Source of the DNA: Winogradskyella thalassocola
Lineage (GTDB): Bacteria > Bacteroidota > Bacteroidia > Flavobacteriales > Flavobacteriaceae
DNA length: 64,000 bases
Assembly (NCBI RefSeq): GCF_900099995.1
Contig: NZ_FNCZ01000001.1
Coordinates: 1,364,001-1,428,000, forward strand
Direction of reading: 5' to 3'
The notes beneath the pieces are model-generated. The model ran no database searches, was not told the DNA's origin, and worked only from the letters and a program-made list of their open reading frames with translations. Position numbers and translations under genes: made by a program. Below are positions 29,881 to 51,920 of this stretch, one piece after another (position 1 is the first letter of the stretch; the number at the start of each line of letters is the position of its first letter).

Positions 29881-30000
29881 TAAAATGAGTTTTTAAGTTG
29901 CTACCAATAAACAGTTTTTTTTGTTAATGGACTAAACGTTAAATATTTATTACTTTACTAAAAGATAAATTAATAACTTATGAGTCCTAAACGTATTCAA

Positions 30001-30903
30001 ATGAAAAAAATAACTTCAATTATACTACTCATAGTATTGTGTAGCTCTTGTACTGTACATAAACGGTCTAATATTCAATCTAACGAAGAATTTGTGGTAG
30101 AGATGAAAAAGGCTCAAACCAGAGGTGGTTTAGTAGAAACAGTTTTGCAAGGTGTCTTCTTTGGAGCATCTTATTTGGCTGAGAAATCATCTAAGTCTTT
30201 AGTGAGTACGTATTCTCAGTCCTTGTCATTAAATGATTATTATAATACCGACTTAGGAGATGTAGAAAAAACATATAAAGAGATTCATATAAAAAAATAC
30301 TCTAAACCTTCGGTTAAAATCGAACAAGAAGAAATTACAAGCATAGTTAAAGATGAGTTTTCTAAAATGCCAAAATCGAGAAGTGCAACACAATCTTTAA
30401 ATATTACTGATGTTGTGAGATTAGAAGAAGACGACTTATTAAATTTTTATGCTGTTGTAGAGCTTATAAGCGATCCTGAAAATCCTGGAATCACTAGATT
30501 AAGCTTTAATGAATTGCGTATTTTCTTCTCAAAAACGAAAGTTTATAGTGATGAGGATTTAAATGCTAAAATTTCAATTTCTATACAAGGGCAGTGGAGA
30601 AGTGATGATGGAACTCCTTTAAATGCGACATTAATAGAACAAGAATACGATTTTAAGAACTTAAAGTACGGTGCGGAAAATCTCATTGAAAAACCAATAT
30701 TATCACCATGGTATTACGATATTCCTATAACCACGGCTTTAGATAACAATGATCATTTTGGAGTTGTTAAGATTAATGTAAGATTAGAAGAATACGAAGG
30801 CAATAAAAGCAAGTATATTAATAAACTGCCTAGTATGTTGAGCGATAATAAAGATGCCATAATAACTGATGGTGCTTCTGCTATAGAGAAAATCACAAAT
30901 TAA
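30001..30903 (+). CDS. predicted lipoprotein heading the CHASE2-caspase string
   Basis: I do not recognise a named family. Starting at the ATG at 30001 gives a 300-residue protein with an SPII signal and lipobox Cys17 (VLCSSCTVHK); an upstream ATG at 29980 would add MSPKRIQ before the signal. A glycine-rich segment follows an R-G site (AQTR41-GG), then mostly beta-strand-like polar sequence containing VVRLEEDDLLNFYAVVELIS. It is 3 bp from the CHASE2 gene. Its place at the head of an operon of exported signalling proteins suggests an outer-membrane sensor or tether, which is inference only. Confidence 0.75.
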   Translation: MKKITSIILLIVLCSSCTVHKRSNIQSNEEFVVEMKKAQTRGGLVETVLQGVFFGASYLAEKSSKSLVSTYSQSLSLNDYYNTDLGDVEKTYKEIHIKKYSKPSVKIEQEEITSIVKDEFSKMPKSRSATQSLNITDVVRLEEDDLLNFYAVVELISDPENPGITRLSFNELRIFFSKTKVYSDEDLNAKISISIQGQWRSDDGTPLNATLIEQEYDFKNLKYGAENLIEKPILSPWYYDIPITTALDNNDHFGVVKINVRLEEYEGNKSKYINKLPSMLSDNKDAIITDGASAIEKITN

Positions 30904-30906
30904 TTA

Positions 30907-32076
30907 ATGAAAGGTTCTATAAATAAACTTTTATACAGAGACGCATTGCTATGTACTCTCATGACGTTTATCGTTGCAGGTTTACTATACTTTGCTTTCG
31001 TTAATTTATCTATTTTAGATCCGTTTGAAAAAGCCTTTAAAGATTTTAAATTTACTGATATGTATTACTCTGAGCGGTTTAATGAGACGCAAAGAAATAA
31101 TAAAATCGTTCTTGTAAATATTAAACATGCTGATCGTTTTCAGCTTGCGCAAGCCATTGAGAAAATAGTAGAACAAAAGCCTAAGGTTATTGGGTTAGAT
31201 ATAATTTTTAAGGAACGAAAATTAGAATTTACTGATTCAATTTTAAAAAATGTATTACTATCTAATAATGATAACATTGTTTCAGCCTATTTTCATGATG
31301 AAGATTCAATAGTTAATAGTGATGATTATTTTAAAACCGAAAATCAAATAAAAGGTTATATTAATTTAAACTTAAATGGGCAAAACACTGTAATTAGAGA
31401 TTTTATTGGTGTTAAAGGAGATAACGTTAAAGAGTTCGCTTTTGCAACGCGTCTCGCATTAGCGTCGGGTTATATTGACGAAGCTTATGCTTTAAAGGAA
31501 TTAAGAAATTCAATACCTATTAATTATATCGGTAATAAGGATGTATTTTTAAATTTTGATATAGATGAAATTTCAAATTTAAATGAAATTCCCGCTTTAA
31601 AAGATGCTGTCGTTATTCTAGGATATTTAGGAGATGGAAATGAGCAGTTTGATATTGAAGACAAGCATTTTACACCATTAAATAAAGATTGGGTTGGTAG
31701 AGCAGTGCCTGATACTTATGGTGTTACAATACATGCAAATATTTTAAACATGCTTTCAAAGCAAAATTTAATTTATAGAGTTTCTACTGTAGGAACTTAC
31801 TTAATAGCATTTGTATTTTGCTTTTTTATCATAGTTATGGGATTAAAACTTTATAAGCGGAGTAACTTCATGTTTGATTTTACCGAAAAAATTATTCAAC
31901 TTTTACTTTCAGTATTACTATTATATTTAGCGTTATTATTGTTACAGTCTAATATATTTATCAATATTGTACCGGTAATTCTATTATCTCTTTTAAGTAT
32001 AGAAATGGTATGTTATTACGAGTATCTGGTGAAATATCTTAATAAAAAATTTAAATGGAAAAGTCACTTATTATAA
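30907..32076 (+). CDS. CHASE2-domain membrane sensor protein
   Basis: This 389-residue protein has one N-terminal transmembrane helix (about 14-32), an extracytoplasmic CHASE2 domain (about 35-265) and three C-terminal hydrophobic helices (about 295-385). CHASE2 features include a FKDFKF segment, NNKIVLVNIKHADRFQLAQA, PKVIGLDIIFKER, and the later DAVVILGYLGD and TYGVTIHANILNML. No kinase, cyclase or other output domain follows the helices, unlike most CHASE2 proteins. Signalling output must therefore lie in a partner, plausibly the co-transcribed FecR-like protein and caspase. It overlaps the next gene by 22 bp. Confidence 0.85.
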   Translation: MKGSINKLLYRDALLCTLMTFIVAGLLYFAFVNLSILDPFEKAFKDFKFTDMYYSERFNETQRNNKIVLVNIKHADRFQLAQAIEKIVEQKPKVIGLDIIFKERKLEFTDSILKNVLLSNNDNIVSAYFHDEDSIVNSDDYFKTENQIKGYINLNLNGQNTVIRDFIGVKGDNVKEFAFATRLALASGYIDEAYALKELRNSIPINYIGNKDVFLNFDIDEISNLNEIPALKDAVVILGYLGDGNEQFDIEDKHFTPLNKDWVGRAVPDTYGVTIHANILNMLSKQNLIYRVSTVGTYLIAFVFCFFIIVMGLKLYKRSNFMFDFTEKIIQLLLSVLLLYLALLLLQSNIFINIVPVILLSLLSIEMVCYYEYLVKYLNKKFKWKSHLL

Positions 32077-32831
32077 TCCTGGCATGTTGTTTTTCTTGGT
32101 CACTAAATGCACAAGATAGTCTCTGTGTCTTTAAGATAAAGGGTAGTGCATACAGTAAAATGATGAGTTCCATTACGCCTATTTCTAAAGGCATGTTTAT
32201 TACGGATAAATCTAAATTATTAGTAAATGAATCTAGTGAGATAACTGCTATTAACGCTAATGGAGAAGCATTTCAAATTAATAAAGTAGGTGAGTATAAT
32301 TTCAATACAATTATAGAACAACATTCAGCTGAAAATTCAAAAAGCCTAACCTCAAAATACTTTAAGCTCATGTGGAATGAATTGCTTAAAAATGAATCTG
32401 GCAAAACAATTATTGGAGGAGTATTTAGAGGAGATGTTTTAATGGAATTTCCTAAAGATAGCACCAAATTAGCAAGTTCTAAACTCACTTTTAAATGGAA
32501 AATAGAAGAAGAAAATAAAACCTATTATCTCTTCGTGAAAAATTTAAGCACAGATGAAATTTTTAAAACAGCAACCAACGGAAGTGAACTCACACTTTAT
32601 AAAGATCAAACTATTTTTTCTGAAGGGACTGATTTTGAATGGATGGTTTCGACTTCAGAATTCCCTAACCTAAAGAATAAAATGTTCTATTTTATTAATC
32701 TTGTGAGTAAAGCCGAATACAAATTACAAATAGCCACTTATCATACCTTAATTAAAGACTTAAAGAATTTAGGATTGTCTGAAACAGAAATAGAAACTTC
32801 AATTTGTGAAACGTATGGAATTTGTAAATAA
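32055..32831 (+). CDS. exported FecR-like protein
   Basis: This 258-residue protein has a Sec signal peptide (to about SLNAQ, residue 20). The segment VFKIKGSAYSKMMSSITPISKGMFITDKSKLLVNESSEITAI is arranged like the small beta domain of FecR/periplasmic ligand-binding proteins: a first strand, a 'launch' loop, then the raised-threshold segment and the attribute strand. The middle region (about 110-200) is beta-rich, and a short C-terminal helical part ends in SICETYGICK. The FecR assignment is from pattern only. Overlaps with the genes on both sides (22 and 17 bp) imply strict co-translation of CHASE2, FecR-like protein and caspase. Confidence 0.6.
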   Translation: MEKSLIIILACCFSWSLNAQDSLCVFKIKGSAYSKMMSSITPISKGMFITDKSKLLVNESSEITAINANGEAFQINKVGEYNFNTIIEQHSAENSKSLTSKYFKLMWNELLKNESGKTIIGGVFRGDVLMEFPKDSTKLASSKLTFKWKIEEENKTYYLFVKNLSTDEIFKTATNGSELTLYKDQTIFSEGTDFEWMVSTSEFPNLKNKMFYFINLVSKAEYKLQIATYHTLIKDLKNLGLSETEIETSICETYGICK

Positions 32832-35800
32832 AAAAAAACTAATTTTTCTTATCGTTTTATTAATTAGTTTTATAGGCTTCACTCAAAATCAGACAATTAA
32901 TTATTCTTCAAATGAGAATCTGAATATTACGTCTTTTGATGTATCGGGAACTAATAATAAGATTGCGATTAATGTTTTTCCATTAACAGAAACCATTATT
33001 TATGATGGTTACACAGGTAACGAACTTAATCGATTAAAGGGTTTTGAGACCACACCAAGATCTGTGCAATTTGATGACAATAGAAATCTTATTATTGTTG
33101 AATATTCAAATAAAATTAATGTTTATAACAGTATAGATTATACGTTAATTATAACCCACGATAAGCCTGACTTTTCAGCTGCAATGGCTTATTCATCGGA
33201 ACTTGGAAAACTTATTTTTTCGGCATCAGGAGATATTGTAAATATTAATGTTACCAAAGGTGATAAAGAAATTTACCCAGATTTAATAAAAAAAAACAGT
33301 TATGACCAAAGCCTAAAAATATCAAAAAAAGGTGATGTTATTGCGCATTTAGATAATGGTAAATTAAGCCTATTTAAAGATTATGTAAAACTCAGTGAAT
33401 TAAAAACAAACCCTATTTTAGACTTTACCATTGGTGAAAATACTATCGTAGTTTTGTCAGAGTATGAACCTTTAAAACTCATGACCCAATTTTATGATTT
33501 TAATGGTAACCCCTTAACTGAAGAGAATCGTTATCAAAACTTATATAAGCCATATTCTTATAAAAACACATTGACATATGTAAATGAGGAGTTCGTGTTT
33601 TATGGAGCTTTTAAGGCCATTTCTTTATTAACAAAAGACCGAAAGCCTTACAAATATCAATTTCAAGAAAATTTTAGTGAGTACCAATTTATAAGAGCAC
33701 TAGGGTTTGTAATAAATTATGGAAACCGTTTAGATATTGTTGATGTTGAAGGGAGATTGAAATCGCAAATTAATGTGGGATCTATCTATAATCAAAGTGG
33801 AATTTTTGATGATGATAAAGAGGTTTTTAGCGAAAATAATTTTGTACTACTAAGCGAGGATAAATTGTTTTTTTCAAATGATTCTGAGGGTAAACCAGAA
33901 TCTATGCAATTACAAAGCCCCTATGTTAATGGTTATTCTAATGATAAAAATCTTTTAGCTTTTGTTACAAGAGATAATATGTTACGGGTTTGGGATATTG
34001 ATAAAAAGCAGGAAGTAGCATCAATAGCTTATGAAGGTGCCTATCTTCAATTTATACAGCTCTCTAAAGCAAACAATATTGTGGTGGTAAAATCACAGAC
34101 AACTAATACAGTTAAGGTATATGATTTAAAATCTCTTGAGGTTTTAGATATCTTAAATTTTGATGATGAGCTAATTACATCGCTAGACTTAAATGAGAAA
34201 TGGTTAGCTGTTGGGACATCTAAAGGTGATTATTACACTTGGCAAGTAGACGGATCTAGCATAAATCCTGTACTAAAAAAAGCTAAAGGTTTAGGGAATG
34301 CAATTACTAGTATTAAAATTTTTGGTGACGATGTGTTTCTAGCAAGTATGGGTAGAATAGTAAAGTTTTCTTTAGTTGATGATAAAAAAATATATAGCAC
34401 TACTTTGAAAGGTCATGAAAGTTATATTCAATCCATGGCTCTTAACGATTCTAATCAGTTTTTGGTTAGTAGTTCTATTGATGGTAGTATAAACCTTTGG
34501 GACTTAAAATCAGAACATCTTCTAGAAACTTATAGCTTAGATGCTACTTGGGTTAATCAAATAAAAATAAACAAAGATCTTACCATTACTTCAAATGGTC
34601 CCGGAAATTATGGCAATATTATTAGCGCCTCGGAACTGAGTGAGCGTTTTATAAATTCTAAACCAGAATTGATTATACAATCATCAAATGCTACAGGCTC
34701 TAGACAATTACGGTTTAGTCCAGATGGAAAACTTATAGCTAGTATCGATGGAAATAAAATAAAGGTAAGGGAGGTGTTAACTGGTTTTTTGGTAAGTGAA
34801 TTCATTACAAAAAATGCCGTTGTAAATGATTTCGTTTTCGATAAGGATGGGCAATCCTTAATTGTTGCGACTGGTTCAGGTATTCAGTTTTTCGATCACT
34901 TAACAGGAAAGTCGAAGAAGTACCTAGATTTAAGTGTTCAAAATAGGAGCATACATCATATTGAGACATTTAATAATCATAACGTTTTTATAGCAAATAA
35001 TATCCATGGTTGGCATCAACCATTGTTTATGCATTCTAATTCTGGGGTTTACCTTAGTGAGCTTAACGTTAATCCAGGTAATGAAATTGATACGTCTGTC
35101 ATAAATATTAAAATAAGTGATAATGATAAAATGATAGCAACTTACGGTAGTCATTACATTAAAATTTTCACAGTAAATGATCAACTACAAACAGAACAAA
35201 TTGTTGCAATACCAAGAAAAAAAGTAAAAGTTAGTAGCACGGAATGGAATAACCTTATGGATTTTAGCCCTAGCGGTAGTTATTTATCTTATCTGGAGTT
35301 TGAAGGCATGAAAACCGTAGTCTATGACATAGAGAAACAACAAGTTATATACGATGAGGTTGGCACGCCAAGTAAATTTGGTCAGGAAAATGAATTACTA
35401 GTTACTCAAGATATTACAGGCATAGCTTTAAAAAATCTTAATAAACCTAGTGAAAGGAATTTCATTTCAAATAAAGAACATATCTCGTTAATTTTAGCAA
35501 TGGATTACGATCCTAACGAAAAATTATTCGCAACAGCTGATTCATGGGGGAATATAAAAATATGGAATAGTATTACTGGTAAAACTATAACTGAAATAGA
35601 CCGATTTAGCAATGATATTTATACAAGTGAGTTAAGTCCTAGTGGCAATTTTATAGCATACAGTAATAAGCAAGGGCTGTTTTTATTTAATTTAAAGGAA
35701 TTTAAAACTATAAAATTGGAAGGCAATAATTATCCTTATTTTGGCGCATTTTCAAAAGATAATAATCTTTATTATTTCAGAGATAAAACCAAATACAAAG

Positions 35801-37953
35801 CCTTTAATTTAAATTCCTTGGCCACAAAAACACTTTTTGATTCTAAGATTGAAAATGATAGGGTTAGCGGAACCACCTTATCTAAAGATGGTACACTTTT
35901 AATATTTGAAGATAAACCGACCAATGTGATACATTTTTATAATCTGAAGACTAATACAGAGGTTGCTCAACTTAATAAAACGTCCATATCAAACTATACA
36001 ACAGTAGCGTCTATAAAATTATTAGATTCTGAGAAGTTAATAATAGAAGGTGTAGGGCTTACCAACGAAGATGGTGAAAAACTGTCTATAGAATTAATTA
36101 ATTATAATATAAAGACAAAAGTTTTAACTAGACTTTCAAATAAGCGCTATATAGATATTAAGTCCGATTTTAAAGATGTAATTATCAAAGGAAATACGGC
36201 GGTAAATGTAGTGTCTTCAGATAAGGCGTATTATACCTATCAAGAAGATTTTCACTTAAAGGTTGAAGATTTACAGACAAATAAAATACTATATGATAAA
36301 TATATTAAAGGTTTTGATATTAGGTTTGGCTATTTTACCGAAGATAATAAGGAGCTTGTAATAGGTTTTGACAACGGTACTATTCAAGTTTTGGATACTT
36401 CAAATTTTAAATTATTAAAGAGTTTTGAAGGTGTTGTAGGAGATATATCCAAGATAGATATTAAAGGGCGTTTTTTAATGGTACTGGGTGAAAATGATAA
36501 GATTAATGTTTTTGATATTAAACAAGGCTATAAAAAAATATATTCTACTGCATTTATTGGTAATGGGGAATTTTTAATTGCAAATGATGAAGGTTATTAT
36601 TATGCCTCAAAAGGTGCTACTGAAAATGTTGCATTTAAAAAAAACTTAGATGTTTTTCCTTTTGAGCAATTTGATCTTTATTACAATCGACCAGATAAGG
36701 CTTCTAAGAATTTAGTGGACTTAGGCATAAAAGACAAGGCATTATCAGAGGCTTATTATAAAGCTTATTTAAAAAGGTTGAAGAATATAGGTTTTTCTGA
36801 AGCCCAAATTTCAGGAGATCTACATTTGCCAACATTAAGTATTGTTAATGATTTGCCGGTAACGATTGATAAAGATAGCATTGATATATCTGTTCTTGGA
36901 ATTGACCATTTATATCAGCTCGATAGAATCAATATTTGGGTAAATGATGTTCCAATATTTGGATCGAAAGGAAAAAATTTAAAAGACAAAAATCTAAAAC
37001 GCATTAAGGAGTCTTATAAAATAGCATTGACATCAGGTTCTAATAAAATTGAAGTTTCTGTTACTAATATTAAAGGTTCCGAAAGTTTAAGGAGCATAGC
37101 TCGCGTAAATTGTGAAATTAAAAGAGAAAAACCAGCTTTGTATTTAGTGAGTATCGGAGTTTCTAATTATGCAGATACAGATTTTAATTTAAAATATGCG
37201 GCAAAGGATGCTTTAGATATTAGTGCCTATACAGAAGCACTAACAGATAAATACAGTAGCATTAATACAATTAAATTATTAAATGAAGAGGTTACAATAG
37301 GTAATGTAATGGCTATTAAGAAAACTCTGAATAAAACAGAAGTGTCGGATGTTGTTGTGGTGTTTTTTGCAGGTCATGGTCTTTTAGATGATAATTTTGA
37401 TTATTACCTAGCGACACATAATATTGATTTTAATAACCCGTCCGAAAATGGACTTTCTTATGAGAACCTAGAAGGTCTATTAGACGGCATACCAGCTCGC
37501 AAGAAGCTATTATTAATAGATGCTTGCCATTCTGGTGAAATAGATAAGGATGATACAGAGTTTACTTCAACAGACAGTCCTGAAAACGTTAAAGTAACCA
37601 ATAGAGGCTCTGTTGGTGCAAAGTCGAAATCATCCAAAGTAGGGCTTAAAAATTCGTTTGAGTTAATGCAAATGTTATTTGCAGATTTAAGACGTGGCAC
37701 AGGTGCTATGGTCATTAGCTCGGCGAGTGGAGTGGAATTTGCCTATGAAGGAGAACAATGGGAAAACGGTGTATTTACCTATGCGTTGTTAGAGGGATTA
37801 AAGTCTGGCAACTGCGATGTTAATAAGGATAATGAAATTTCGGTGTCTGAACTACGTAATTATGTTATAGAACGTGTTGACGTTTTAACTAATGGAAGGC
37901 AAAACCCAACGGCTCGAAAAGAAAACTTAGAATTCGATTTTAAAGTTTGGTAA
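32815..37953 (+). CDS. giant exported WD40-repeat caspase-family (C14) protease
   Basis: With the ATG at 32815 (a GTG at 32806 would add MKR) this is a 1712-residue protein. It has a Sec signal ending near SFIGFTQ. About 1250 residues of WD40-like repeats follow (for example VVSSSIDGSINLWDLKSE and LFATADSWGNIKIWN), enough for several propellers. An Ig-like linker (about 1340-1430) leads to a C-terminal caspase fold. The catalytic dyad is complete: H1521 in VFFAGHGLLD and C1571 in LLIDACHSGE. The inter-subunit loop 26 residues after the Cys contains TNR1597-GS followed by a Ser/Lys-rich stretch. WD40 domains normally act as platforms for partners. I infer an extracytoplasmic scaffold-protease, the effector of the rightward operon. 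Confidence 0.9.
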   Translation: MEFVNKKKLIFLIVLLISFIGFTQNQTINYSSNENLNITSFDVSGTNNKIAINVFPLTETIIYDGYTGNELNRLKGFETTPRSVQFDDNRNLIIVEYSNKINVYNSIDYTLIITHDKPDFSAAMAYSSELGKLIFSASGDIVNINVTKGDKEIYPDLIKKNSYDQSLKISKKGDVIAHLDNGKLSLFKDYVKLSELKTNPILDFTIGENTIVVLSEYEPLKLMTQFYDFNGNPLTEENRYQNLYKPYSYKNTLTYVNEEFVFYGAFKAISLLTKDRKPYKYQFQENFSEYQFIRALGFVINYGNRLDIVDVEGRLKSQINVGSIYNQSGIFDDDKEVFSENNFVLLSEDKLFFSNDSEGKPESMQLQSPYVNGYSNDKNLLAFVTRDNMLRVWDIDKKQEVASIAYEGAYLQFIQLSKANNIVVVKSQTTNTVKVYDLKSLEVLDILNFDDELITSLDLNEKWLAVGTSKGDYYTWQVDGSSINPVLKKAKGLGNAITSIKIFGDDVFLASMGRIVKFSLVDDKKIYSTTLKGHESYIQSMALNDSNQFLVSSSIDGSINLWDLKSEHLLETYSLDATWVNQIKINKDLTITSNGPGNYGNIISASELSERFINSKPELIIQSSNATGSRQLRFSPDGKLIASIDGNKIKVREVLTGFLVSEFITKNAVVNDFVFDKDGQSLIVATGSGIQFFDHLTGKSKKYLDLSVQNRSIHHIETFNNHNVFIANNIHGWHQPLFMHSNSGVYLSELNVNPGNEIDTSVINIKISDNDKMIATYGSHYIKIFTVNDQLQTEQIVAIPRKKVKVSSTEWNNLMDFSPSGSYLSYLEFEGMKTVVYDIEKQQVIYDEVGTPSKFGQENELLVTQDITGIALKNLNKPSERNFISNKEHISLILAMDYDPNEKLFATADSWGNIKIWNSITGKTITEIDRFSNDIYTSELSPSGNFIAYSNKQGLFLFNLKEFKTIKLEGNNYPYFGAFSKDNNLYYFRDKTKYKAFNLNSLATKTLFDSKIENDRVSGTTLSKDGTLLIFEDKPTNVIHFYNLKTNTEVAQLNKTSISNYTTVASIKLLDSEKLIIEGVGLTNEDGEKLSIELINYNIKTKVLTRLSNKRYIDIKSDFKDVIIKGNTAVNVVSSDKAYYTYQEDFHLKVEDLQTNKILYDKYIKGFDIRFGYFTEDNKELVIGFDNGTIQVLDTSNFKLLKSFEGVVGDISKIDIKGRFLMVLGENDKINVFDIKQGYKKIYSTAFIGNGEFLIANDEGYYYASKGATENVAFKKNLDVFPFEQFDLYYNRPDKASKNLVDLGIKDKALSEAYYKAYLKRLKNIGFSEAQISGDLHLPTLSIVNDLPVTIDKDSIDISVLGIDHLYQLDRINIWVNDVPIFGSKGKNLKDKNLKRIKESYKIALTSGSNKIEVSVTNIKGSESLRSIARVNCEIKREKPALYLVSIGVSNYADTDFNLKYAAKDALDISAYTEALTDKYSSINTIKLLNEEVTIGNVMAIKKTLNKTEVSDVVVVFFAGHGLLDDNFDYYLATHNIDFNNPSENGLSYENLEGLLDGIPARKKLLLIDACHSGEIDKDDTEFTSTDSPENVKVTNRGSVGAKSKSSKVGLKNSFELMQMLFADLRRGTGAMVISSASGVEFAYEGEQWENGVFTYALLEGLKSGNCDVNKDNEISVSELRNYVIERVDVLTNGRQNPTARKENLEFDFKVW

Positions 37954-38074
37954 ATTTTTAGAGCTAATATCTCTACTTTAATATAAGTTATCAAATGTAT
38001 TTGGACTAAAAAAATTTTTAAAGCTATTACCTATAATTTACTCTATGATCAAAGACGTGACGCCATAATCTTAG

Positions 38075-38240
38075 CTATTCAAACAACATAAAAGCAGCCC
38101 ATTTTTCAGGCGGTTTTTATATGTTTTAGAAATTGATTTTTCATTTTTTTTTTTTTTTTTTTTAAGGCTTTTCGAACTTCCGTGCTACTTAACTAAGTGG
38201 TGTAAGAAATGGTCATTAACTCGGCACTTTCAGAAATAGC
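38075..38240 (-). pseudogene. decayed 3' end of a second CHAT-protease gene
   Basis: Read leftward, this segment reproduces the last 60 or so residues of the CHAT protein encoded at 41529-45404. ESAELMTISYT matches ETSEFMTTFYT; an in-frame TAG replaces the Trp of TNW; LSSTEVRKAL matches LSGQKIRTAF. After a 20-base T run (38144-38163, A on the coding strand), KTYKN and EKWAAFMLFE-stop match KTYKD and EKWAAFVLFE-stop, with a 1-base shift between them. The bases around the stop codons also align. It has an internal stop, homopolymer expansion and a frameshift, so it cannot be functional. Confidence 0.85.
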
Positions 38241-38437
38241 CGACATTACATTGATGTATTAAAGACTGAATTAGAAAATGATGGATTTGTTTTAGCGGAA
38301 GAAGACCTTCAAAACCTATTGAATTAACTGAAAGAATAATATCAGAACTATTGAAACAAGTTATGTTGCTAACGGATGGTTAGCAAACACCAGATTTACG
38401 AGAGCTAAATAAGGAGACGACGATTAAATAGTGGTCA
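38241..38437. other. degenerate sequence between the convergent strings
   Basis: No intact gene is present. A + strand frame around 38225-38325 ends in IDVLKTELENDGFVLAEEDL followed soon by TAA and further stops. It looks like another gene remnant that I cannot identify. Together with the CHAT fragment it fills the 485-bp gap between the two convergent operons. Confidence 0.4.
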
Positions 38438-41428: not shown

Positions 41429-41528
41429 TTTAAGATTTGGTATGTGTTTTCAATATTAGGATTGATAGCTACAAATTACAAATTTTATCTGTGTGTGTCT
41501 TTTTTTAGCTATGTATGACCAGTTTAGC

Positions 41529-44500: not shown

Positions 44501-45404
44501 TTGTTTGTCCTAATTTTTGTAAAACGTTAGCATAATAATCAACAAGTTGAATGTATAAAGTTATGTTTTCGGGTTGTTTATAATAAGGAGCATCTAGTAT
44601 CGATTCAAATTTTAATGCCGCCATTTCAAAATCATCTTGTCTAAGTAATGCCACACCGTTTAAAAAGGTAATGTCTATGATGTTAATACTTTCATCTGTT
44701 TTTAAAAATTCAACTAAATTTTCAGCTTTAGAAAAGTAGAAACTTGAAGCTTTATAATCATCAATGGAGAAGTAATAATTACCTAAATAATAAGACGTGT
44801 AAGCGTAGAAATCATTATTTGTAGCGTTGTTTAATCTCAGGATAGAGTCAACTTCAATCAATGTTGTGTTGAACTGTAATTCGTCATTTACGTTCTTATA
44901 GTTAAAAGCTAAACTAAAGAGTTGCTGTGCATAGTTGAGATCTTTTGTTTTTAATCGTTTTAGTAATGTTTTACGAGTATCAATGGTTTTTTGTAAATCG
45001 AAATTGGTATAGCTGTTTATTAGGTTCTCTAATACTTGATTATAGTAGGAATCGTTTTCGGTCTTTAATATATCAATTTGCTTTAAGGTGCCTTCGAAAT
45101 GTGTCGCAGCATTTTCGTATTGTTCTAGTCTGAAATAACAAACGCCTAAATAATTTTGGTTATTTATTGGATAATATTCAGTTTCGTTATTAGTGCTAAA
45201 ATCTATTTGATCACTAACATTAAGCGCATTCGTAAAATGAGGAATGGCATTGGTAAAATCCCCTTTTTCATAGCGTTCATAGCCAACGGTGTATTCGTTT
45301 AGCCAATAGTCGAAAATATTCTCAGTGTCTTGGCCATAGCTTTTTACACTCGTTAAAAAAGTGATGCATACTAAAATTGATATGTTGAAGTATCTAATTC
45401 TCAA
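41529..45404 (-). CDS. exported TPR-CHAT protease
   Basis: This 1291-residue protein has a signal peptide (to about SYGQ), about 18 TPR-like repeats over residues 30-760, a helical linker (about 780-870) and a C-terminal CHAT domain (about 890-1291). The dyad is H1126 (IATHGFFF) and C1205 (LSACETGLG). At the edge of the CHAT core, just before LYELIWSPIEASLKG, is an inserted polar loop TR949-GSKSKSTTNTKG. CHAT proteases (separase-like, as in Craspase or gasdermin-linked systems) cleave partner proteins, and those known to me are mostly cytosolic; here a signal peptide points outside the inner membrane. The gene is 24 bp after the metacaspase gene. A decayed paralogue lies at 38075-38240. Confidence 0.93.
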   Translation of the reverse strand: MRIRYFNISILVCITFLTSVKSYGQDTENIFDYWLNEYTVGYERYEKGDFTNAIPHFTNALNVSDQIDFSTNNETEYYPINNQNYLGVCYFRLEQYENAATHFEGTLKQIDILKTENDSYYNQVLENLINSYTNFDLQKTIDTRKTLLKRLKTKDLNYAQQLFSLAFNYKNVNDELQFNTTLIEVDSILRLNNATNNDFYAYTSYYLGNYYFSIDDYKASSFYFSKAENLVEFLKTDESINIIDITFLNGVALLRQDDFEMAALKFESILDAPYYKQPENITLYIQLVDYYANVLQKLGQTKKAETVHFNSLAFLLDNNAENTEIYAMQNINLGEFYLNSEDITNAEKHLHLAKTIYEKLGVSTTNDYFILLNYLGQLNYFKGNYKVAEGYYLNALNLYDKLDDKVVMNKLNVESNLALVYQNTGVDDYDKAQKLHLKVLQNKKEILGDIHSDYGISLMNYGNFLIETGDYLKAEQQFNKALSIFKTTIGSNSLMYAKQLLNLGQFYYTTRQTKNSLEAFNEAIKIYTANQSQESYGMALALAGKGLNIQFLGETDNALEFQLKGFEILKNNANQSHIDYGKIAVNIGACYYIKGNYTEALSYYKKALESYKTSLNEGHYLYGTLLTNIAEALINSNQIPAAIENLDKALNNFSNNYGIDSYYYGTALAQKGVALFKAKKYKESISILEQAQPIIAKYTGEESDLFNQLLFHLAVNYEALGNNDKATELYLKNYKGFKKELKDVFTYRSENEKKDFLRRFETTLSWLSNSVFNSHFQNEALLTTGLNNQLLLKGLLLNTTKDLLAELSNNGDENVKLKIENYRQLRQQREKYLNSISKYKESILDSIKTQLNNLEIELVKLHSTNLKLNTDNFNKDWTQIKSNLKSNEIALEFTNYTERVDNTITNTKVYGVYLIYKDWDQPKIIELFKEEDLKAILKSQNPNTLYQTRGSKSKSTTNTKGLYELIWSPIEASLKGIETVYFSPSGLLNQIPFAALDTEGKPILASQYQMVQLSSTYKITEINTGPKSNTTLFIGGITYDFIPSKTKAESKDTISQLSILKSVSDTRSLGAQWNYLAGTLEEVNSIASLFSKKDKDYSSFTGANASETRFKNLSGNAPNIIHIATHGFFFENPKTRTQSALNTAQKNSYTINADPLLRSGLLFSGSNYAWQNGSNPHIEDDGILTALEISNLDLSNTDLVVLSACETGLGDIDGSEGVYGLQRAFKMAGVDIIVMSLWEVPDAETSEFMTTFYTNWLSGQKIRTAFRNTQLTMAKTYKDHPEKWAAFVLFE

Positions 45405-45428
45405 GTTTAAAGGTATTTAAACTTCTAA

Positions 45429-47408
45429 TTAGTTTTTACTTCTCACAATCTCATAAACAAACTCAGTACTATAACCATCAATAGGGCCAGTCGTTGTTGA
45501 GCCACTACTTCCTCTGGTTTGTGTGTACGTTTGTCCAATAAATCCTACAAGAGGGTCAGTGGTGCCCCGTGTGCCAGCTTTAGCTCCTCTCGACTTTACC
45601 GTTGGTCTAAAATTAATAGGTGACGTGGTTGCAAAACCTTTTAAAACTAAGGTTTCGTAAGGGTCTCCAAATGAATAAATACAATCTTTAAAGGTCATGG
45701 TTTTTCCGGGTTGAATAAGACGTTCATTGTCATTGCGTTCACATTGGTCATTCGGCATAAATGGTGCTATTTCCCCCTTTGAATTAATTTCTATAATACT
45801 GAAGTATAGTGGTTTGTTGCTCTTGTTTGTGACTTGTAAATAGACAGCGTCAGAGGTTGTGTTTACCTGAAATTTACCAGACGCATTATTAAAGTCACCT
45901 TCCTCTAATAACGTCACTTCATCTGTATATTCATCTTTTTTGGCTGGCAATAATTTAAATTCAAATTCATAATCTAAATTATCTAATTTCAATTTTTTTA
46001 AATAACTCCCTTGTGCATAGTTGAAAAGTGTTTCGGTAACAGGCTTGTAATTGTAATCACCATCAATTCGTGTTTGTGTATACACACTGTTTCCTCCATT
46101 TCTGGTAATTATTGAAAATTGGGTGTTTTTCTTTAATTCTTCTAGAATAAGATCTGCTTTGGTAGAATCTTGAACAATGTCACCTAATTTATGTTCTTTT
46201 AAGTATTTGCTCACATTCTTCTTAATTGCTTCAGACTTTAATGATGTATCAAAGTAAATATTCATTGCCAAATCACCATAAGAAGGTTGATCTACAAAAA
46301 CCCAATAGTCTTTTTCGTTTTCAGAACTTAATTTAGTGTCTAATTTTATTATTGATTCATTAAATGTTGCTTTCGTAATTGTGCCTGTTGTAATAATGTT
46401 ACTTTCTTCAACCTTTGACGTGCCTGCTGGCAGAATATTAACAGTAGTGCCATCAAATAAACGTTGTAGTTTACCTGCGTTTATTTTTATAATATCTGGG
46501 CGTGGTACTTTTGAAACTTCAAAATAAGGTTGTTGCTTTACGTAGTCTCCTTTAAATAATTTATAATCAGAATCTCCTTCAATTGTTGGTGTTTGCTTTG
46601 GTGAAATAACATTTATGTTTGCAGAAATGGAAGAGAATAGTTTTCTATAGGTGAAATCTGTTCCCAATTCAGCCATAGCTTTAGAAAATGCAAAACTAAG
46701 TGAACCATAACCTTCGTATTCATAATTTAACTCATCTGCTGAAGCTCCTGATAACATTACAAAAGGTGCGGCATTTGGTTTTACCTTGGTAACTTCTAAT
46801 AAACCACTTCCTGCTGCATTTTTATTAGTGGACGCTTCCCAACCTTTTGGTGCAAAAGTAGATTCTCCACCACGCGCTTTACCTCCTCTCGTGGCAGAGC
46901 CAGAATGACAACTATCTAATAGAATTAGGAGCTGACCGTCTTCACCAAGTGTATTTCTAAAATTAGCAATAATATTACCCAACTCATCATCTCTTATATG
47001 ATTTTCTCCTTTATAATTTGAGGTGTATCTGACTAAGGCATCATAAGGCACCAAAGCTTCATCTTTATCATCAATTTCATCTCCATTATCATCAAAAATT
47101 TGCTGACCATGACCAGAATAATGAATCACAACAACATCCCCAGGTTTAATCCGTGACTGAAGCTCATCTATGGCTTTTAAAATACCAGCTCTTGTTGCAG
47201 CAGCATTAGTAAGTATGGTGATGTTTTCTTCTTTAAAATTTTGATTAAGTAAAGTATTTTTAATCAAAGGCACATCATTAACTGAGCTAATAGAGGACCA
47301 ACCTGTTTTTGTAGGGTAATCACCAATTGCAACGATAAGTCCGTATTTTTCGGCCATAACATTTAAACTAAACATTAAGGCGATAAGAAAGAGTGCTTGT
47401 TTTTTCAT
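45429..47408 (-). CDS. exported metacaspase-type C14 protease with DUF4384 domain
   Basis: This 659-residue protein has a Sec signal (to about VMAE, residue 20), a metacaspase core (about 21-275) and a DUF4384-like beta domain (about 520-600). The dyad is H100 (VIHYSGHGQQ) and C167 (LLDSCHSGS). The DDNGDEIDDKDEALVPYD acidic segment and IRDDEL are hallmarks of metacaspases/orthocaspases, which prefer Arg or Lys at P1. Directly after the Cys, in the loop where metacaspases self-cleave, are TR174-GGKAR179-GGES. Three more sites (SR607-GA, TR614-GT, TR632-GS) sit in a low-complexity C-terminal tail. This is the best candidate for the Arg-specific processing enzyme of the locus. Confidence 0.92.
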   Translation of the reverse strand: MKKQALFLIALMFSLNVMAEKYGLIVAIGDYPTKTGWSSISSVNDVPLIKNTLLNQNFKEENITILTNAAATRAGILKAIDELQSRIKPGDVVVIHYSGHGQQIFDDNGDEIDDKDEALVPYDALVRYTSNYKGENHIRDDELGNIIANFRNTLGEDGQLLILLDSCHSGSATRGGKARGGESTFAPKGWEASTNKNAAGSGLLEVTKVKPNAAPFVMLSGASADELNYEYEGYGSLSFAFSKAMAELGTDFTYRKLFSSISANINVISPKQTPTIEGDSDYKLFKGDYVKQQPYFEVSKVPRPDIIKINAGKLQRLFDGTTVNILPAGTSKVEESNIITTGTITKATFNESIIKLDTKLSSENEKDYWVFVDQPSYGDLAMNIYFDTSLKSEAIKKNVSKYLKEHKLGDIVQDSTKADLILEELKKNTQFSIITRNGGNSVYTQTRIDGDYNYKPVTETLFNYAQGSYLKKLKLDNLDYEFEFKLLPAKKDEYTDEVTLLEEGDFNNASGKFQVNTTSDAVYLQVTNKSNKPLYFSIIEINSKGEIAPFMPNDQCERNDNERLIQPGKTMTFKDCIYSFGDPYETLVLKGFATTSPINFRPTVKSRGAKAGTRGTTDPLVGFIGQTYTQTRGSSGSTTTGPIDGYSTEFVYEIVRSKN

Positions 47409-47427
47409 AATTGTTTTAATTAATATG

Positions 47428-48858
47428 TTAGTTTAAATCAAAGAGGCTGAATGAAACGCCGAAATAGTATCCAAAATCATAGACGTTTTTTGTGAAGCTA
47501 TCTGTACTATTAAATGGGGTAATATCTCCAACTTCCATACCATTGGTTAGCTTTTTTATCGGGCCATAAGCGACTCCCCCCGAAAGCGATAGGCGACTAT
47601 CACTTCCAAAGAAAAGAGATGGTCCAAAAAGGAAATTAATACCATTAACATTATTGTCTCCAGAAATAGGAATAGATAACCCAAAACTTCCTCCTACGTT
47701 AAAATTCTCACCTAAATAGGGATAGAAGTTAATCATGGTGCTTAAGTTAGGAGTGTAAAAGTCATTTTTGTCTGCGCCAATGACTCCGCTATCATCTATA
47801 AAGTAGTCATTAGATTTAGATCCAAAATTATTTAAGGTCATCGCGACACTCGTATTAATTTTAAAACCTCCTTTAGAAAATAGCTTAATATTTCTCGTTT
47901 TTAATGTTGTTGAAGTGCCATCATTTTCAATATCATTTGAAAAATCACTTTGTATAAATTTAAGTTCAATATTTACTTTGTCTGCAGATATTTCGTAATC
48001 GTAAGTTTGTTCAAAATTTGAAGCTTCTAGAACAGTATATAGCGAACGTAATTCTTCTAAGCTTTGCAAACTTTGATTTGTGGACTGATTAAGGTTAGTC
48101 ATTAGGCGCTGTAAATCTCCTAATGCAATGTTGCGAGAGGTTAATTCACCCCTAGTAAGATCTGTGTCGTTAGCAATTTCAGTTTCAACAGCACCAGACA
48201 TGGTTTTAACATTGCTTTCTAATTGAGATCGACTTTCTTTGATAGATTTTTCAACTTTTGCTAAATAGACATAAAAGTTATCTTTTGCACTTGGCAATCG
48301 TACATCTGGTTCGGCATCTGCGGTTTCTATTAAATTTTTAAGAATTGTTTCTTTATCTAAATTAGGATTTAAAAGATTAGATAGTAATGTTGTTTTTAAT
48401 GCCGAAACGTTAGTAATCGTATTGTTTAAATCTTCAAAATTACTAGTTGCAGAAGCACTCCCTCGTGATCCGGCTTCAGATCTAAACATTTGAGAATCTG
48501 GAAGGTTAGAGGTGTTTAAATCTATATTGTCTCCTGTAAATGAGTTAATGCCTCCTAATAAAGAGCTGAAATTAAAACCTTGTCCACTAGATAGTAAGTC
48601 TTCTTCTTTGACGTCTGTTTGTACTTGTACAGCAAAAGGGTTTATATTTTTTAATTTAAGTTCTACTAAGCTATTTCGTTTCAACTTCGGATTTTCGAGC
48701 GTGTCTATAACTACATTATTCTTATCGATTTTAAGATAACTCACTTTCTCGGTGGCATAATCGTAGGTGATTCTGTAGCGCTCTTGAGCTGTTAATGCGC
48801 TGAAAAACAGAAATGCAAATACAATTAAAATACTTTTGTTAGGGATGTTTTTTTTCAT
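47428..48858 (-). CDS. exported protein with coiled coil and probable outer-membrane barrel end
   Basis: I do not recognise the family. The 476-residue protein has a Sec signal (to about ALTAQ, residue 25), a polar region with GSR132-GSASATSNF, then helical sequence (about 140-290, coiled-coil-like). The C-terminal third consists of short alternating strands (FNVGGSFGLSIPISG, DSRLSLSGGVAYGPI) ending in an aromatic-rich SFSLFDLN. The tail resembles an outer-membrane beta-barrel. It lies between the metacaspase (19 bp) and the hydrolase (27 bp). It is the only protein in the leftward string with no enzymatic or repeat domain, so it could be the membrane target of the proteases; this is speculative. 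Confidence 0.7.
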   Translation of the reverse strand: MKKNIPNKSILIVFAFLFFSALTAQERYRITYDYATEKVSYLKIDKNNVVIDTLENPKLKRNSLVELKLKNINPFAVQVQTDVKEEDLLSSGQGFNFSSLLGGINSFTGDNIDLNTSNLPDSQMFRSEAGSRGSASATSNFEDLNNTITNVSALKTTLLSNLLNPNLDKETILKNLIETADAEPDVRLPSAKDNFYVYLAKVEKSIKESRSQLESNVKTMSGAVETEIANDTDLTRGELTSRNIALGDLQRLMTNLNQSTNQSLQSLEELRSLYTVLEASNFEQTYDYEISADKVNIELKFIQSDFSNDIENDGTSTTLKTRNIKLFSKGGFKINTSVAMTLNNFGSKSNDYFIDDSGVIGADKNDFYTPNLSTMINFYPYLGENFNVGGSFGLSIPISGDNNVNGINFLFGPSLFFGSDSRLSLSGGVAYGPIKKLTNGMEVGDITPFNSTDSFTKNVYDFGYYFGVSFSLFDLN

Positions 48859-48885
48859 GATGATAAATTTAAATTTATACCTGAT

Positions 48886-50325
48886 TTACTGTTTTACTTT
48901 CCAGTAGGTGTCATTATTTAGTTTAACAATAGACAAACGTTTTCGTTTTAAAGCGCGTTGTCCTGATTTTATAATATCAAAAATATCTGATATGATAGAG
49001 TTGGTGTCTGCAAAATAAGAATGACTTAAAAAACTAGTATCAATACCAGTGGCGTCTATTGTTTCAATACCTTTTAATAGCACCATTTTTTCGCCAGCAT
49101 CGCCAGCTCTTGGGTTTCCATGTAATAATTTTGAAGCTTTTAAAGCTAAGTCATCTGCCGAAACATACAGTGTAATTGGCTTTTTAGCTGTAGAAATCAT
49201 CTGAGGAGCTATTTCATTTTTAAAAACATCGGCATCAATATCGGGAGCCGCCAAAATAATTTCTTTTATTTTAGAATTTAATTCTGGGTGATCCTTTAGA
49301 ACTTCTACAATGGCTTTAGTTAAACCGCGGTTACCCATACTATGGGCAACCAAATAGATGTCTTCTGCTTCAGATTTAGATAAATAATCTTCTAGAAATA
49401 ATCTTAAGTTTTTTCTAGACCATTCAATGTTTTCTTCATCTTTCCCATACTTATAGGTAGAGGCTTGTGATGGCCAACTGTAAAATACCGCTTTACCATC
49501 AAATTTTAAATCGTAAGATATTTGAGCCGTTCGCTTTGCTGCATCACTAAACGAAGTGTTATAACCATGTACAAATAAAAATGTACTTTTTTTATCCGAT
49601 TTTTTAATGTCGGATGCTAATTTATTGAAGAATTTTTGCCTATCCAATAGGGCAACATCATGTATCATAATATGTTTTGCTGGATCTTCAGAAAATTCAA
49701 ACTTCCAAATCGAAGGACTTTCTAACTCACCAACTCTATGATCGTGTGGAATGCTAACGTTTACAATACCATATTTTAAATGAGAACGTTCTGTACCAAA
49801 AGCATCATTGATATCAGCTGCTTTGTCGTAGTCTCTGTCAGTACCAAAGTATATGGGTAGTTTTACAAAATCTGGATTGTTTCCACGACTGCCTCTGTCT
49901 TTTTGATTTGGATCTACGTAATCTAAACAGATGCTATAATTTTGCGATACTGCAATACCATTTACAAAATAGGTTAATCGCAATTTGAAATTTCCTTGGT
50001 TTTTAAAACTATCATTAGAGAGTAACCAAAATTTAAAATCGAATTGATTAAACGTTTCTAAAGATTTAAATTCTTCGTTCTTATAATTGGCTTCAACTTG
50101 AATGTTTAAACTATCTAAAATAGCATTGTTTGGTGCCTTAGCTAATTTAAAAGTGCTGTAATCAAATCTATTTGTTAAACAAGAATCGTGCTGAATTATA
50201 GAATTGCTTTGCAGCAGCACATAATCATTATTTTGACTATGCAAGTCTGTATTTATCGCTAAAACACATAGCATAATAAATGCTAAAGTATGATTTATGC
50301 TAATTTTTTTAAGCCAGTTTTTCAT
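48886..50325 (-). CDS. exported DUF900-type alpha/beta-hydrolase
   Basis: This 479-residue protein has a signal peptide (to about LHSQ) and an N-terminal beta domain (about 32-138). A linker with KDR144-GSR147-GNNPDF leads to an alpha/beta-hydrolase of the DUF900 group. The hydrolase starts with LPIYFGTDR and has the oxyanion motif FVHGYNTSF (253-256) and nucleophile S329 in YLVAHSMGNRG. Likely acid and base lie in ISADD-like and LSHSYF segments near the C-terminus. DUF900 hydrolases are predicted esterases/lipases. The double R-G site sits precisely between the accessory domain and the enzyme, where cleavage would release the hydrolase. Confidence 0.88.
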   Translation of the reverse strand: MKNWLKKISINHTLAFIMLCVLAINTDLHSQNNDYVLLQSNSIIQHDSCLTNRFDYSTFKLAKAPNNAILDSLNIQVEANYKNEEFKSLETFNQFDFKFWLLSNDSFKNQGNFKLRLTYFVNGIAVSQNYSICLDYVDPNQKDRGSRGNNPDFVKLPIYFGTDRDYDKAADINDAFGTERSHLKYGIVNVSIPHDHRVGELESPSIWKFEFSEDPAKHIMIHDVALLDRQKFFNKLASDIKKSDKKSTFLFVHGYNTSFSDAAKRTAQISYDLKFDGKAVFYSWPSQASTYKYGKDEENIEWSRKNLRLFLEDYLSKSEAEDIYLVAHSMGNRGLTKAIVEVLKDHPELNSKIKEIILAAPDIDADVFKNEIAPQMISTAKKPITLYVSADDLALKASKLLHGNPRAGDAGEKMVLLKGIETIDATGIDTSFLSHSYFADTNSIISDIFDIIKSGQRALKRKRLSIVKLNNDTYWKVKQ

Positions 50326-50375
50326 GCAAAATATTGATAGTTAATTTTTTATGTTAAGTGCAAAGCTGTAGAAAT

Positions 50376-51920
50376 TTATAGTTTTCCTTTTCTAGCTTTT
50401 TTCAAAAACTTTGCCAAAGTTTTATGTTTTGCTTTTGCTGCAAGTTTCTCCGGATACTTTTTGTCATTATTTTTAGCTCCTGCATCAATCCCTTTATCTA
50501 TTAAAATTTCAGCTAAATCTTTGCTGCCAGTTTTAGCCACTAAGTGCAATAGATTATCTCCATTGTTCGTTTTTACGTTGGTATCCGCTCCATAATATAT
50601 TAAGGTTTCGGCAGCCTCCGTTTTATTAGTTATTATAGCATTTTGCAGTGCTGTATATTTAGAGTTCATTCCTGCATCGGCTAAAAGCCCTTTCTCTAAA
50701 ATAATATTAAGAGCTTCAATACTATTTTTAGAAACAGCAAGATCAATTAACGCTCTCGCATAATCATCAGATATGTTTTCTGAAGTATTATCTAAAACAA
50801 GTTCTAATGCGTCGTTGTTATTGTGATTAATAGCAAGTGTTTCAAAACGACCATTTTCATTGGTGTAATCGTGATTAAAAATCCAACTATAGATACTCCA
50901 AGCATTAAATCGATTCATTACATTATGCTGTACCGCATATTCTATATTCTTATATATAGACATAATTAGTGCTTCTGTTGGTACAGCTGTGATTTTATGT
51001 GATTGGCAACCGGCAGTATAATCCACAGAATCCCATTGCACTGTTTTTATACATTCGCAATCTTCGTCATATTTATAATCGCCTGTATATTTATCATCAG
51101 CTTTATTAAATTCTACAGCACCTCTAACTAAGATGCCTTCAATAAATCCGTTTTGATCAAAAACGGGTCCACCAGAATTTCCAGGAAATGAATCAATATT
51201 ACTTTTAAACCAATTACTTGGCGAATTATCAACAACCACCGCATCCGTAGAGAATTTTAAAGGTAGACCTGTTGGACAACCAATAGTATTAATAGCTCCA
51301 TTTTCTAAAACAGTTCCGCTCGTTCTAAAACGGTACGGTGCTCTATCAGACTGTCTTTTTAGTTTTAAAATAGCATAGTCATTGTTTGTGTCATCATCAA
51401 ACGTAGAAGCGATGATGCTTTCAACTTCAAAAATATTTTCAGATTTAAAATTAAGGCGATTACCATCTATAAAGTCAGACTCGTTTGTATAATCAAATAC
51501 CCAAACAGATCTGTTTGCGTCTTCCATAGAATTTATACAATGCCCAGCCGTAACCATAATGTCGGGTGCAATTAGAAACCCTGTGCAAGAACCTACAGTT
51601 GGTTGATCCAAGAATTTTACATTTGGGTGAAACTTATCTGTTTCAAATTTTTGTGTTAATAAATCGCGTAAGGACCATGCATAAAATTCATTATCATAGA
51701 TGTTTTGTTTTGAAATCATAACAGCTGTAGCTCTTACAAAGTCTGTATAACCTTCAGCATCTTTAACTTCCTTTCGTCCATCTTCACCAAAAACACCTCT
51801 AGTTACTTTAGAGCCTGGTTCAGCAAATGGGTATTCAATTTCTTTGTTTTGTGATTTTTCTTGCGCAAATAGCGACAAACTAAAAGCAACTATTAGACTG
51901 AATAGATAGTGTTTTCTCAT
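50376..51920 (-). CDS. exported trypsin-like serine protease with ankyrin repeats
   Basis: This 514-residue protein has a Sec signal (to about SLFAQ, residue 20), a propeptide-like segment (about 21-60) with VTR41-GVFGEDGRKEV, and a chymotrypsin-fold domain with triad H127 (VTAGHCIN), D181 (NNDYAILKL) and S249 (FPGNSGGPVF). Ankyrin repeats occupy about 360-505 (TALQNAIITNKTEAAETLIYYGADTN). The R-G site before the protease domain recalls zymogen activation by a basic-specific protease, though the new N-terminus GVFG is not the classical IVGG. It is the first gene of the leftward string, 50 bp before the hydrolase. Trypsin-ankyrin fusions are uncommon. Confidence 0.9.
   Translation of the reverse strand: MRKHYLFSLIVAFSLSLFAQEKSQNKEIEYPFAEPGSKVTRGVFGEDGRKEVKDAEGYTDFVRATAVMISKQNIYDNEFYAWSLRDLLTQKFETDKFHPNVKFLDQPTVGSCTGFLIAPDIMVTAGHCINSMEDANRSVWVFDYTNESDFIDGNRLNFKSENIFEVESIIASTFDDDTNNDYAILKLKRQSDRAPYRFRTSGTVLENGAINTIGCPTGLPLKFSTDAVVVDNSPSNWFKSNIDSFPGNSGGPVFDQNGFIEGILVRGAVEFNKADDKYTGDYKYDEDCECIKTVQWDSVDYTAGCQSHKITAVPTEALIMSIYKNIEYAVQHNVMNRFNAWSIYSWIFNHDYTNENGRFETLAINHNNNDALELVLDNTSENISDDYARALIDLAVSKNSIEALNIILEKGLLADAGMNSKYTALQNAIITNKTEAAETLIYYGADTNVKTNNGDNLLHLVAKTGSKDLAEILIDKGIDAGAKNNDKKYPEKLAAKAKHKTLAKFLKKARKGKL

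Follow-up and report, generated by a model that had tools for sequence, protein, structure and literature searches.

Why should non-homologous proteins, encoded side by side, carry the same short Arg-Gly site? This question is raised by a ten-gene locus of Winogradskyella thalassocola (host genome size: 4.57 Mb), located at positions 29980-51920 of a stretch of 64,000 nucleotides (contig NZ_FNCZ01000001.1, forward-strand positions 1,364,001 to 1,428,000; hereafter, the window, which always means this whole stretch). The locus encodes, among others, a metacaspase (hereafter, MCA), other caspase-type proteins, a CHAT protein and a trypsin-like protease. A sequence-only reading of the window had placed the motif [STN]-R-G-[SGAT] in eight proteins of the locus and had taken it for a shared processing site of one proteolytic cascade. 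The evidence presented below leads, with a probability of roughly 0.7, to the following answer: the sites would be Arg/Lys-Gly cut sites, used mainly by MCA, in an extracytoplasmic set of proteases and substrates carried on a genomic island.

Enrichment of the motif in the locus

In its strict form, [STN]-R-G-[SGAT], the motif has nine matches across six of the ten locus proteins: R48 in a putative lipoprotein (hereafter, LPP), R1600 in a WD40-caspase, R23 in a caspase-TPR protein, R949 in the TPR-CHAT protein, R174, R607, R614 and R632 in MCA, and R132 in a putative barrel protein. There is no match across the 34 other window open reading frames (ORFs) of at least 100 amino acids. The sequence-only reading had also counted the trypsin-like protease (TRGV) and a hydrolase (DRGS/SRGN), both of which fall outside the strict motif; likewise, four of the five sites that it had given to MCA are strict and one, R179, reads ARGG. 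Two of its residue numbers change: LPP R41, counted from an in-frame Met at residue 8, is R48 from the first ATG, and WD40-caspase R1597 is R1600.

For comparison, a sample of 550 ORFs from 40 stretches of the same genome (198,748 amino acids) contains 17 strict matches versus 9 in the 7,084 amino acids of the locus, that is, 0.086 versus 1.27 per 1000 amino acids. The enrichment over the genome that had been set as a test was, in consequence, found: 0.61 matches were expected in the locus (Poisson P = 1.8e-8), and the motif occurs in 6/10 locus proteins versus 17/550 sample proteins (Fisher P = 4.6e-7), P values which are optimistic because the motif was chosen on the same locus. When the locus proteins were shuffled in 20-residue blocks, the mean was 0.64 matches and the maximum 4, and 0 of 2000 trials reached 9. 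Five of seven control motifs were unenriched in the locus versus the genome sample, with mild enrichment for [STN]KG[SGAT] (P = 0.0085) and G[STN]R[SGAT] (P = 0.0051). Chance or composition as the source of the motif is rejected by the genome sample and the block shuffling. A general trait of the exported-looking proteins of this genome is rejected as well, since the 202 signal-peptide-like ORFs of the sample hold only 8 strict matches (0.098 per 1000 amino acids).

Conservation and position of the sites

A metacaspase alignment was used to scan 84,980 species genomes. Of 214 confirmed stretches, the 80 best were kept, and these gave 79 related loci, each taken with flanks of up to 10 kb. The top MCA matches belong to Winogradskyella and other Flavobacteriaceae. 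ORFs in these loci were called mechanically and assigned to window proteins by BLAST; the alignments used for sites and flanks comprise ORFs within set length limits and free of unread bases. Per-site counts have distinct sequences as denominators, window protein included.

MCA (45429..47408, minus strand) has a signal-peptide-like start and a C14 domain at residues 23-278, with GHG at 99 and DSCHSG at 165. Its sites R174 (TRGG) and R179 (ARGG), at nt 46866-46892, lie at +7 and +12 from Cys167, and Arg-Gly is kept at them in 71/79 (plus one Lys-Gly) and 74/79 sequences, respectively; for the C-terminal sites (nt 45507-45593), the counts are 68/79 for R632, 52/79 for R614 and 40/79 for R607. 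The barrel protein (47428..48858, minus strand), whose C-terminal half is conserved, carries SRGS at R132 (nt 48457-48468; 30/31) and TRGE at R236 (nt 48145-48156; 23/31). In the trypsin-like protease with ankyrin repeats (hereafter, trypsin-ankyrin; 50376..51920, minus strand), R41-G42 of the TRGV site (nt 51792-51803) is present in 22/22 homologues, always ahead of the protease domain. LPP (29980..30903, plus strand), for which the Pfam scan gave no family, has TRGG at R48 (nt 30118-30129; 12/12), and a second family site near residue 134 (10/12) has been lost from the window protein. The TPR-CHAT protein (41529..45404, minus strand; CHAT domain 961-1289) carries TRGS at R949 (nt 42552-42563; 18/19), 12 residues upstream of the CHAT domain. 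In the DUF900 alpha/beta hydrolase (48886..50325, minus strand; hydrolase domain 234-445), R144 (DRGS, nt 49888-49899), N-terminal to the hydrolase domain, is conserved in 10/10.

The two other caspase-type proteins admit Lys in place of Arg. In caspase-TPR (38438..41428, minus strand), the C14 domain (38-272) is flanked by SRGS at R23 (nt 41354-41365), directly after the signal peptide, and SRGI at R307 (nt 40502-40513), on its C-terminal side; among 14 sequences, the former has 10 Arg-Gly and 2 Lys-Gly, and the latter 8 and 1. In the WD40-caspase (32806..37953, plus strand; C14 domain 1450-1711, DACHSG at 1572), NRGS at R1600 (nt 37600-37611) lies in the loop following the catalytic Cys, and this loop has [RK]G in all 24 distinct homologues, window protein included (16 Arg-Gly, 8 Lys-Gly only; by eye, with 4 rows lacking DxCHSG set aside). 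As these loops have Arg-Gly or Lys-Gly, few of them in the strict form, the site appears best written as [R/K]-G, mostly preceded by Ser/Thr and with a small residue next.

The earlier expectation that the motif would persist in orthologues is borne out by these counts (e.g., MCA R179, barrel R132 and CHAT R949), and Arg-Gly is conserved also in the two proteins that lack the strict form. Caspase-TPR R307, barrel R236 and the second LPP family site add to the earlier list, and hydrolase R147 leaves it, since only the window protein has it. To judge from Pfam borders and from gaps in the alignments, most sites lie, as had been proposed, between domains, ahead of catalytic domains or in the caspase loop, in what look like variable linkers. 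Hydrolase R333, within the nucleophile elbow, and trypsin-ankyrin R266, WD40-caspase R1630 and caspase-TPR R671, within domain or repeat sequence, were rejected as linker sites.

A further claim, that the flanks vary while the motif persists, was assessed by the average share that the commonest residue takes near the site, versus the family median. Flanks are variable around barrel R132 (0.24 vs. 0.58), CHAT R949 (0.24 vs. 0.32), MCA R632 and R179 (0.16 and 0.27, respectively; median 0.43) and hydrolase R144 (0.52 vs. 0.90), and slightly below the median around the first LPP site (0.67 vs. 0.75). The claim holds, then, for most sites; MCA R174 and trypsin-ankyrin R41 depart from it, as discussed below. 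All dipeptides with at least 80% conservation within a family were ranked by their flanks, least conserved first. Arg-Gly took the top rank in three families (MCA, barrel and LPP), ranked second in CHAT and came third in a further family, MINI, described in the next section; in trypsin-ankyrin, caspase-TPR, hydrolase and WD40-caspase, other dipeptides rank first.

Co-occurrence of the site with the metacaspase

Across the 79 loci, the density of the strict motif falls with distance from MCA: 3.31 per 1000 amino acids in MCA itself, 1.21, 0.33 and 0.40 at gene distances 1, 2 and 3, 0.23 at distances 4-5 and 0.12 at 6 or more. Weighted by cluster, the values from MCA outwards are 1.95, 0.56, 0.34, 0.21, 0.20 and 0.08. 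Three of five control motifs are flat near MCA.

The families behind the modest signal that persists once clusters homologous to the window locus are removed include MINI and a C14 protein of 552-579 amino acids. MINI proteins have about 140 amino acids: behind the signal peptide, two sites enclose a variable stretch, and a small Cys-containing domain follows (example: L041:9515-9931; 15 distinct relatives, 10 of them aligned). The Pfam scan of three members gave no family. MINI is missing from the window genome and adjoins the metacaspase in many Bacteroidales. In a class-level set, MINI occurs in 15/395 genomes, 13 of which are among the 23/395 with MCA (Fisher P = 1.5e-16, a value that is too small because the genomes are related). 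MCA presence was called at 1e-20 in a family set (6/199) and at 1e-40 in the order (2/395) and class (23/395) sets, thresholds at which diverged copies are counted as absent; in fact, in G603, a MINI genome outside the 23, a diverged metacaspase adjoins MINI. At least one Arg-Gly precedes the domain in 17/17 MINI matches, with two in 15; 5 of the matches lie on a contig other than that of MCA, in draft genomes. In loci L041 and L055, the site is present in both MCA and MINI, and the retrieved DNA yielded no assignment to any further protease of the locus, other protease families not having been searched.

In the 552-579 aa protein, Pfam finds one (L012) or two (L015, L037) C14 stretches, and the site precedes the C-terminal one. 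By eye, the N-terminal half of four such proteins (L012:14126-15850, L015:13046-14782, L037:8884-10539 and L097:1586-3292, the last placed without a Pfam scan) resembles a degenerate caspase, with the site in the linker. Two more proteins, L072:6595-8124 (with a sub-threshold peptidase M48 match) and a 507-aa ORF in L087, have a signal-peptide-like start, adjoin the metacaspase and carry the site.

CHAT proteins permit another comparison. In MCA-positive genomes, Arg-Gly lies ahead of the CHAT domain in 6/6 readable proteins (the two of the window genome and those of G049, G070, G107 and G204); in MCA-negative genomes, the linker has it in 2/7 (0/5 in G129, twice, G039, G552 and G415; 2/2 in G015). 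The CHAT fragments of G062, with the linker region uncovered, were dropped. As evidence for MCA, this comparison is weak. The second TPR-CHAT of the window genome lies off the locus, on contig C20 (L150:9930-13112), and has ARGAKAK in the same linker. A different recurrent Arg-Gly is found within the CHAT domain in L023, L026, L031, L053, L139, L144, L145 and L147, mostly just upstream of a W-x-x-L-x-G stretch and also in two genomes without a detected metacaspase; the window CHAT protein has TRSL at that position.

Predicted specificity of the proteases

By sequence, MCA is assigned to C14: the Pfam C14 match has an E-value of 2.6e-18, a profile matches PDB metacaspase-1 (E = 7.3e-24), and the catalytic His and Cys of the p20 domain are present in GHG and DSCHSG. 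Its R174 and R179 lie roughly at the position of the inter-subunit cut of metazoan caspases. A published source states that C14 proteases other than metazoan caspases favour Arg/Lys at P1 and that the single orthocaspase characterised by 2017 self-processes (PMC5756287).

Trypsin-ankyrin matches Pfam Trypsin and Trypsin_2, and its H127, D181, S249 and D243 are invariant in 21 rows. D243, six residues ahead of Ser249, presumably stands in place of Asp189 (trypsin numbering), and therefore Arg/Lys at P1 would be expected for a trypsin-like protease. The protein is thus assigned to S1 by its triad and an Asp189-type site, the latter by spacing only. R41 lies 71 residues upstream of Cys112, close to where the matched trypsin domain begins. 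The closest solved relative is a glutamyl endopeptidase.

Organization of the locus

The locus is bounded by ftsZ-yqeY at one end and a FUSC-type membrane protein at the other, and consists of two convergent gene sets: (i) four genes on the plus strand; and (ii) six on the minus strand. The plus-strand set includes, besides LPP and the WD40-caspase, two proteins outside the motif: a CHASE2-domain membrane protein (30907..32076; Pfam CHASE2, E = 9.5e-20), without Arg-Gly and a candidate sensor; and, between it and the WD40-caspase, a small protein with a signal-peptide-like start (32055..32831), with no Pfam family and a single Arg-Gly (FRGD, R125). LPP, the CHASE2 protein, the small protein and the WD40-caspase (window 29980-37953) recur as a group in L022, L023 and L035, with no lipoprotein assigned in L035 and no WD40-caspase assigned in L023.

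All ten N-termini pass a crude rule for signal peptides or membrane segments, and the locus proteins are, to judge from these signal-peptide-like starts, probably exported. The host genome has three C14 matches, all within the locus. The locus is an accessory island, because in G157, a genome of the same genus, there are just two unrelated ORFs between yqeY and the FUSC protein (L207 2423-7309, versus window 29980-51920). In a second genome of the genus, G527, the neighbours of yqeY differ, and an MCA match is absent in both.

Single-protein PADLOC models, run on nine of the ten locus proteins (all except the WD40-caspase), gave partial matches (caspase, PrimPol, TPR, PDC-M72A, RT-Protease_XI, LmuA, ankyrin, PDC-M35A and Avs1b) and recognised no gene set, and an NCBIfam scan of nine of the ten proteins gave just partial or general matches.

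A proposed processing network

Under the favoured explanation, the processing site would be [R/K]-|-G, mostly preceded by Ser/Thr and followed by a small residue. MCA would be the main cutter; trypsin-ankyrin and the remaining caspase-type proteins may also cut, or may themselves be cut. Processing in the loop past the catalytic Cys (MCA, WD40-caspase), before the catalytic domain (trypsin-ankyrin, CHAT, caspase-TPR) or C-terminal to it (caspase-TPR R307) would mature or release the proteases, which may be activated in this way; cuts in LPP, barrel and hydrolase, and elsewhere in MINI, would release or switch substrates. The trigger is probably, as a guess, an envelope signal received through the CHASE2, WD40, TPR and ankyrin parts. 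That all this forms a single cascade, with an order of activation and enzyme-substrate pairs, we infer. As to the cutter, the CHAT linkers, the co-occurrence with MINI, the known specificity and loci L041 and L055 together point to MCA, short of proof.

Five lines speak for a shared processing site: enrichment, persistence in orthologues, positions at domain borders, recurrence in exported families absent here and co-occurrence with MCA; the least favourable result is the test in unrelated families, which is just modestly positive. Once clusters homologous to the window locus are set aside, the strict motif is found in 4/42 clusters at distance 1 and in 8/314 that are at least four genes away (P = 0.041); for [STN]RG, the counts are 10/42 and 29/314 (P = 0.0086), and the control [DEVIL]RG[SGAT] gives P = 0.07. 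This modest excess, together with the value of that control, heads a series of observations that weigh against the favoured explanation. Two controls rise near MCA: [STN]KG[SGAT], about twofold (0.31 in MCA and 0.35 in adjacent genes versus 0.09-0.17), and G[STN]R[SGAT] (0.86, 0.32 and, far away, 0.07), whose count may include overlaps with the strict motif, e.g., GTRG. The site is loose, since just 5/24 WD40-caspase loops match it in its strict form (by eye), and counts across relatives are non-independent because orthologues inherit sites. Flanks are as conserved as the median around MCA R174 (0.43 vs. 0.43), which is close to the catalytic Cys, and more so around trypsin-ankyrin R41 (0.66 vs. 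0.59). Regarding MCA as the cutter, G015 (84% complete genome) keeps the CHAT linker site twice with no MCA match at 1e-8; the MINI genome G886 has no MCA match at 1e-8 either; in MCA-negative genomes, the second CHAT copy of G129 has Lys-Gly in the linker region, and a strict-motif site lies inside the domain in the first copy of G129 and in the CHAT of G039; and MCA-positive CHATs are more closely related to the query. Finally, in a passage on the maturation of a fungal metacaspase, basic residues at the cut sites are described as not mandatory (PMC9622860).

Alternative explanations

Could the sites simply be ordinary autoprocessing loops of C14, CHAT and S1 enzymes that have a P1 preference in common and form no network? 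Those of MCA, WD40-caspase, caspase-TPR, CHAT and trypsin-ankyrin do sit where maturation cuts are expected, C14 enzymes are stated to prefer Arg/Lys (PMC5756287), and the strict-motif sites within the CHAT domains of MCA-negative G129 (first copy) and G039 agree with self-processing. Nevertheless, self-processing leaves aside the conserved sites of non-proteases, i.e., LPP (12/12), barrel (30/31) and MINI (17/17), and the Gly next to the basic residue in all families seems to go beyond a P1 preference alone; we regard this explanation as unlikely. A housekeeping envelope protease from outside the locus, e.g., of C11 or C25 type, would account for the off-locus CHAT paralogue with its ARGA site on contig C20, the CHATs of G015 and the MINI genome G886, but the motif is rare among the exported-looking ORFs sampled from this genome (8 matches in 202), and MINI tracks MCA across genomes (13/15); we regard such an enzyme as quite improbable.

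Least probable of all, and very much so, is that Arg-Gly serves as a signal for docking, sorting or anchoring and not as a cut site: several sites come soon after signal peptides (LPP, caspase-TPR, MINI), as such a signal might, but others are found in linkers in the middle of proteins or in loops past the catalytic Cys, and the number of sites per window protein ranges from 1 to 5.

Returning to processing by MCA, a bolder version can be offered tentatively, at slightly less than even odds. In it, MCA would be a hub that matures itself, the other caspases, TPR-CHAT and trypsin-ankyrin, and that cuts non-enzymes of the envelope and the MINI proteins, as small prepro-proteins, by one Arg/Lys-Gly code, in an accessory system found across Bacteroidota with a complement-like logic, MINI being caspase-released effectors or signals.

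Known systems and biological meaning

Several known systems share features with this locus. Metacaspases and orthocaspases (C14B; Microcystis MaOC1, the yeast metacaspase) resemble MCA in C14 sequence, GHG and DSCHSG and, according to published work, cut after Arg/Lys and self-process; MCA differs from them in its signal-peptide-like start, its long C-terminal part and a site common to non-homologous neighbours. The type III-E CRISPR protease Craspase, with its substrate Csx30, is alike in that a TPR-CHAT protease is encoded with candidate substrates, presumably for limited cleavage; Craspase orthologues, however, cut a non-conserved site (PMC11106740), whereas the site of this locus is conserved and its proteins have an exported look. 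Among the locus proteins, neither the Pfam scan (ten proteins) nor the PADLOC scan (nine) gave a gRAMP or CRISPR match, no dedicated search having been made. Animal zymogen cascades such as complement and coagulation also combine several pro-proteases and substrates with a common basic cut site, but most of their members belong to other protease families, and this locus is bacterial. Gingipain-type processing of secreted Bacteroidota proteins likewise relies on a clan CD protease that makes Arg/Lys cuts in exported proteins; there, the protease is of family C25 and the proteins are cargo of the type IX secretion system (T9SS), whereas here a C14 protease and a local gene cluster are involved.

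Metacaspase genes in Bacteroidetes and prokaryotic metacaspases with WD40 and TPR parts are already on record (PMC3501461; PMC4933709). A search of the titles and abstract openings of open-licence papers found no such locus and no common cut site across a caspase locus. In all likelihood, what is known here are the protease families, and what is new are their arrangement and the sequence code for likely substrates.

To our knowledge, little is known about what bacterial caspase homologues cut. If Arg-Gly is the cut site, the substrates could be read from sequence, with residue-level predictions for about ten protein families; and, if the favoured explanation is true, these bacteria would have a caspase network outside the cytoplasm.

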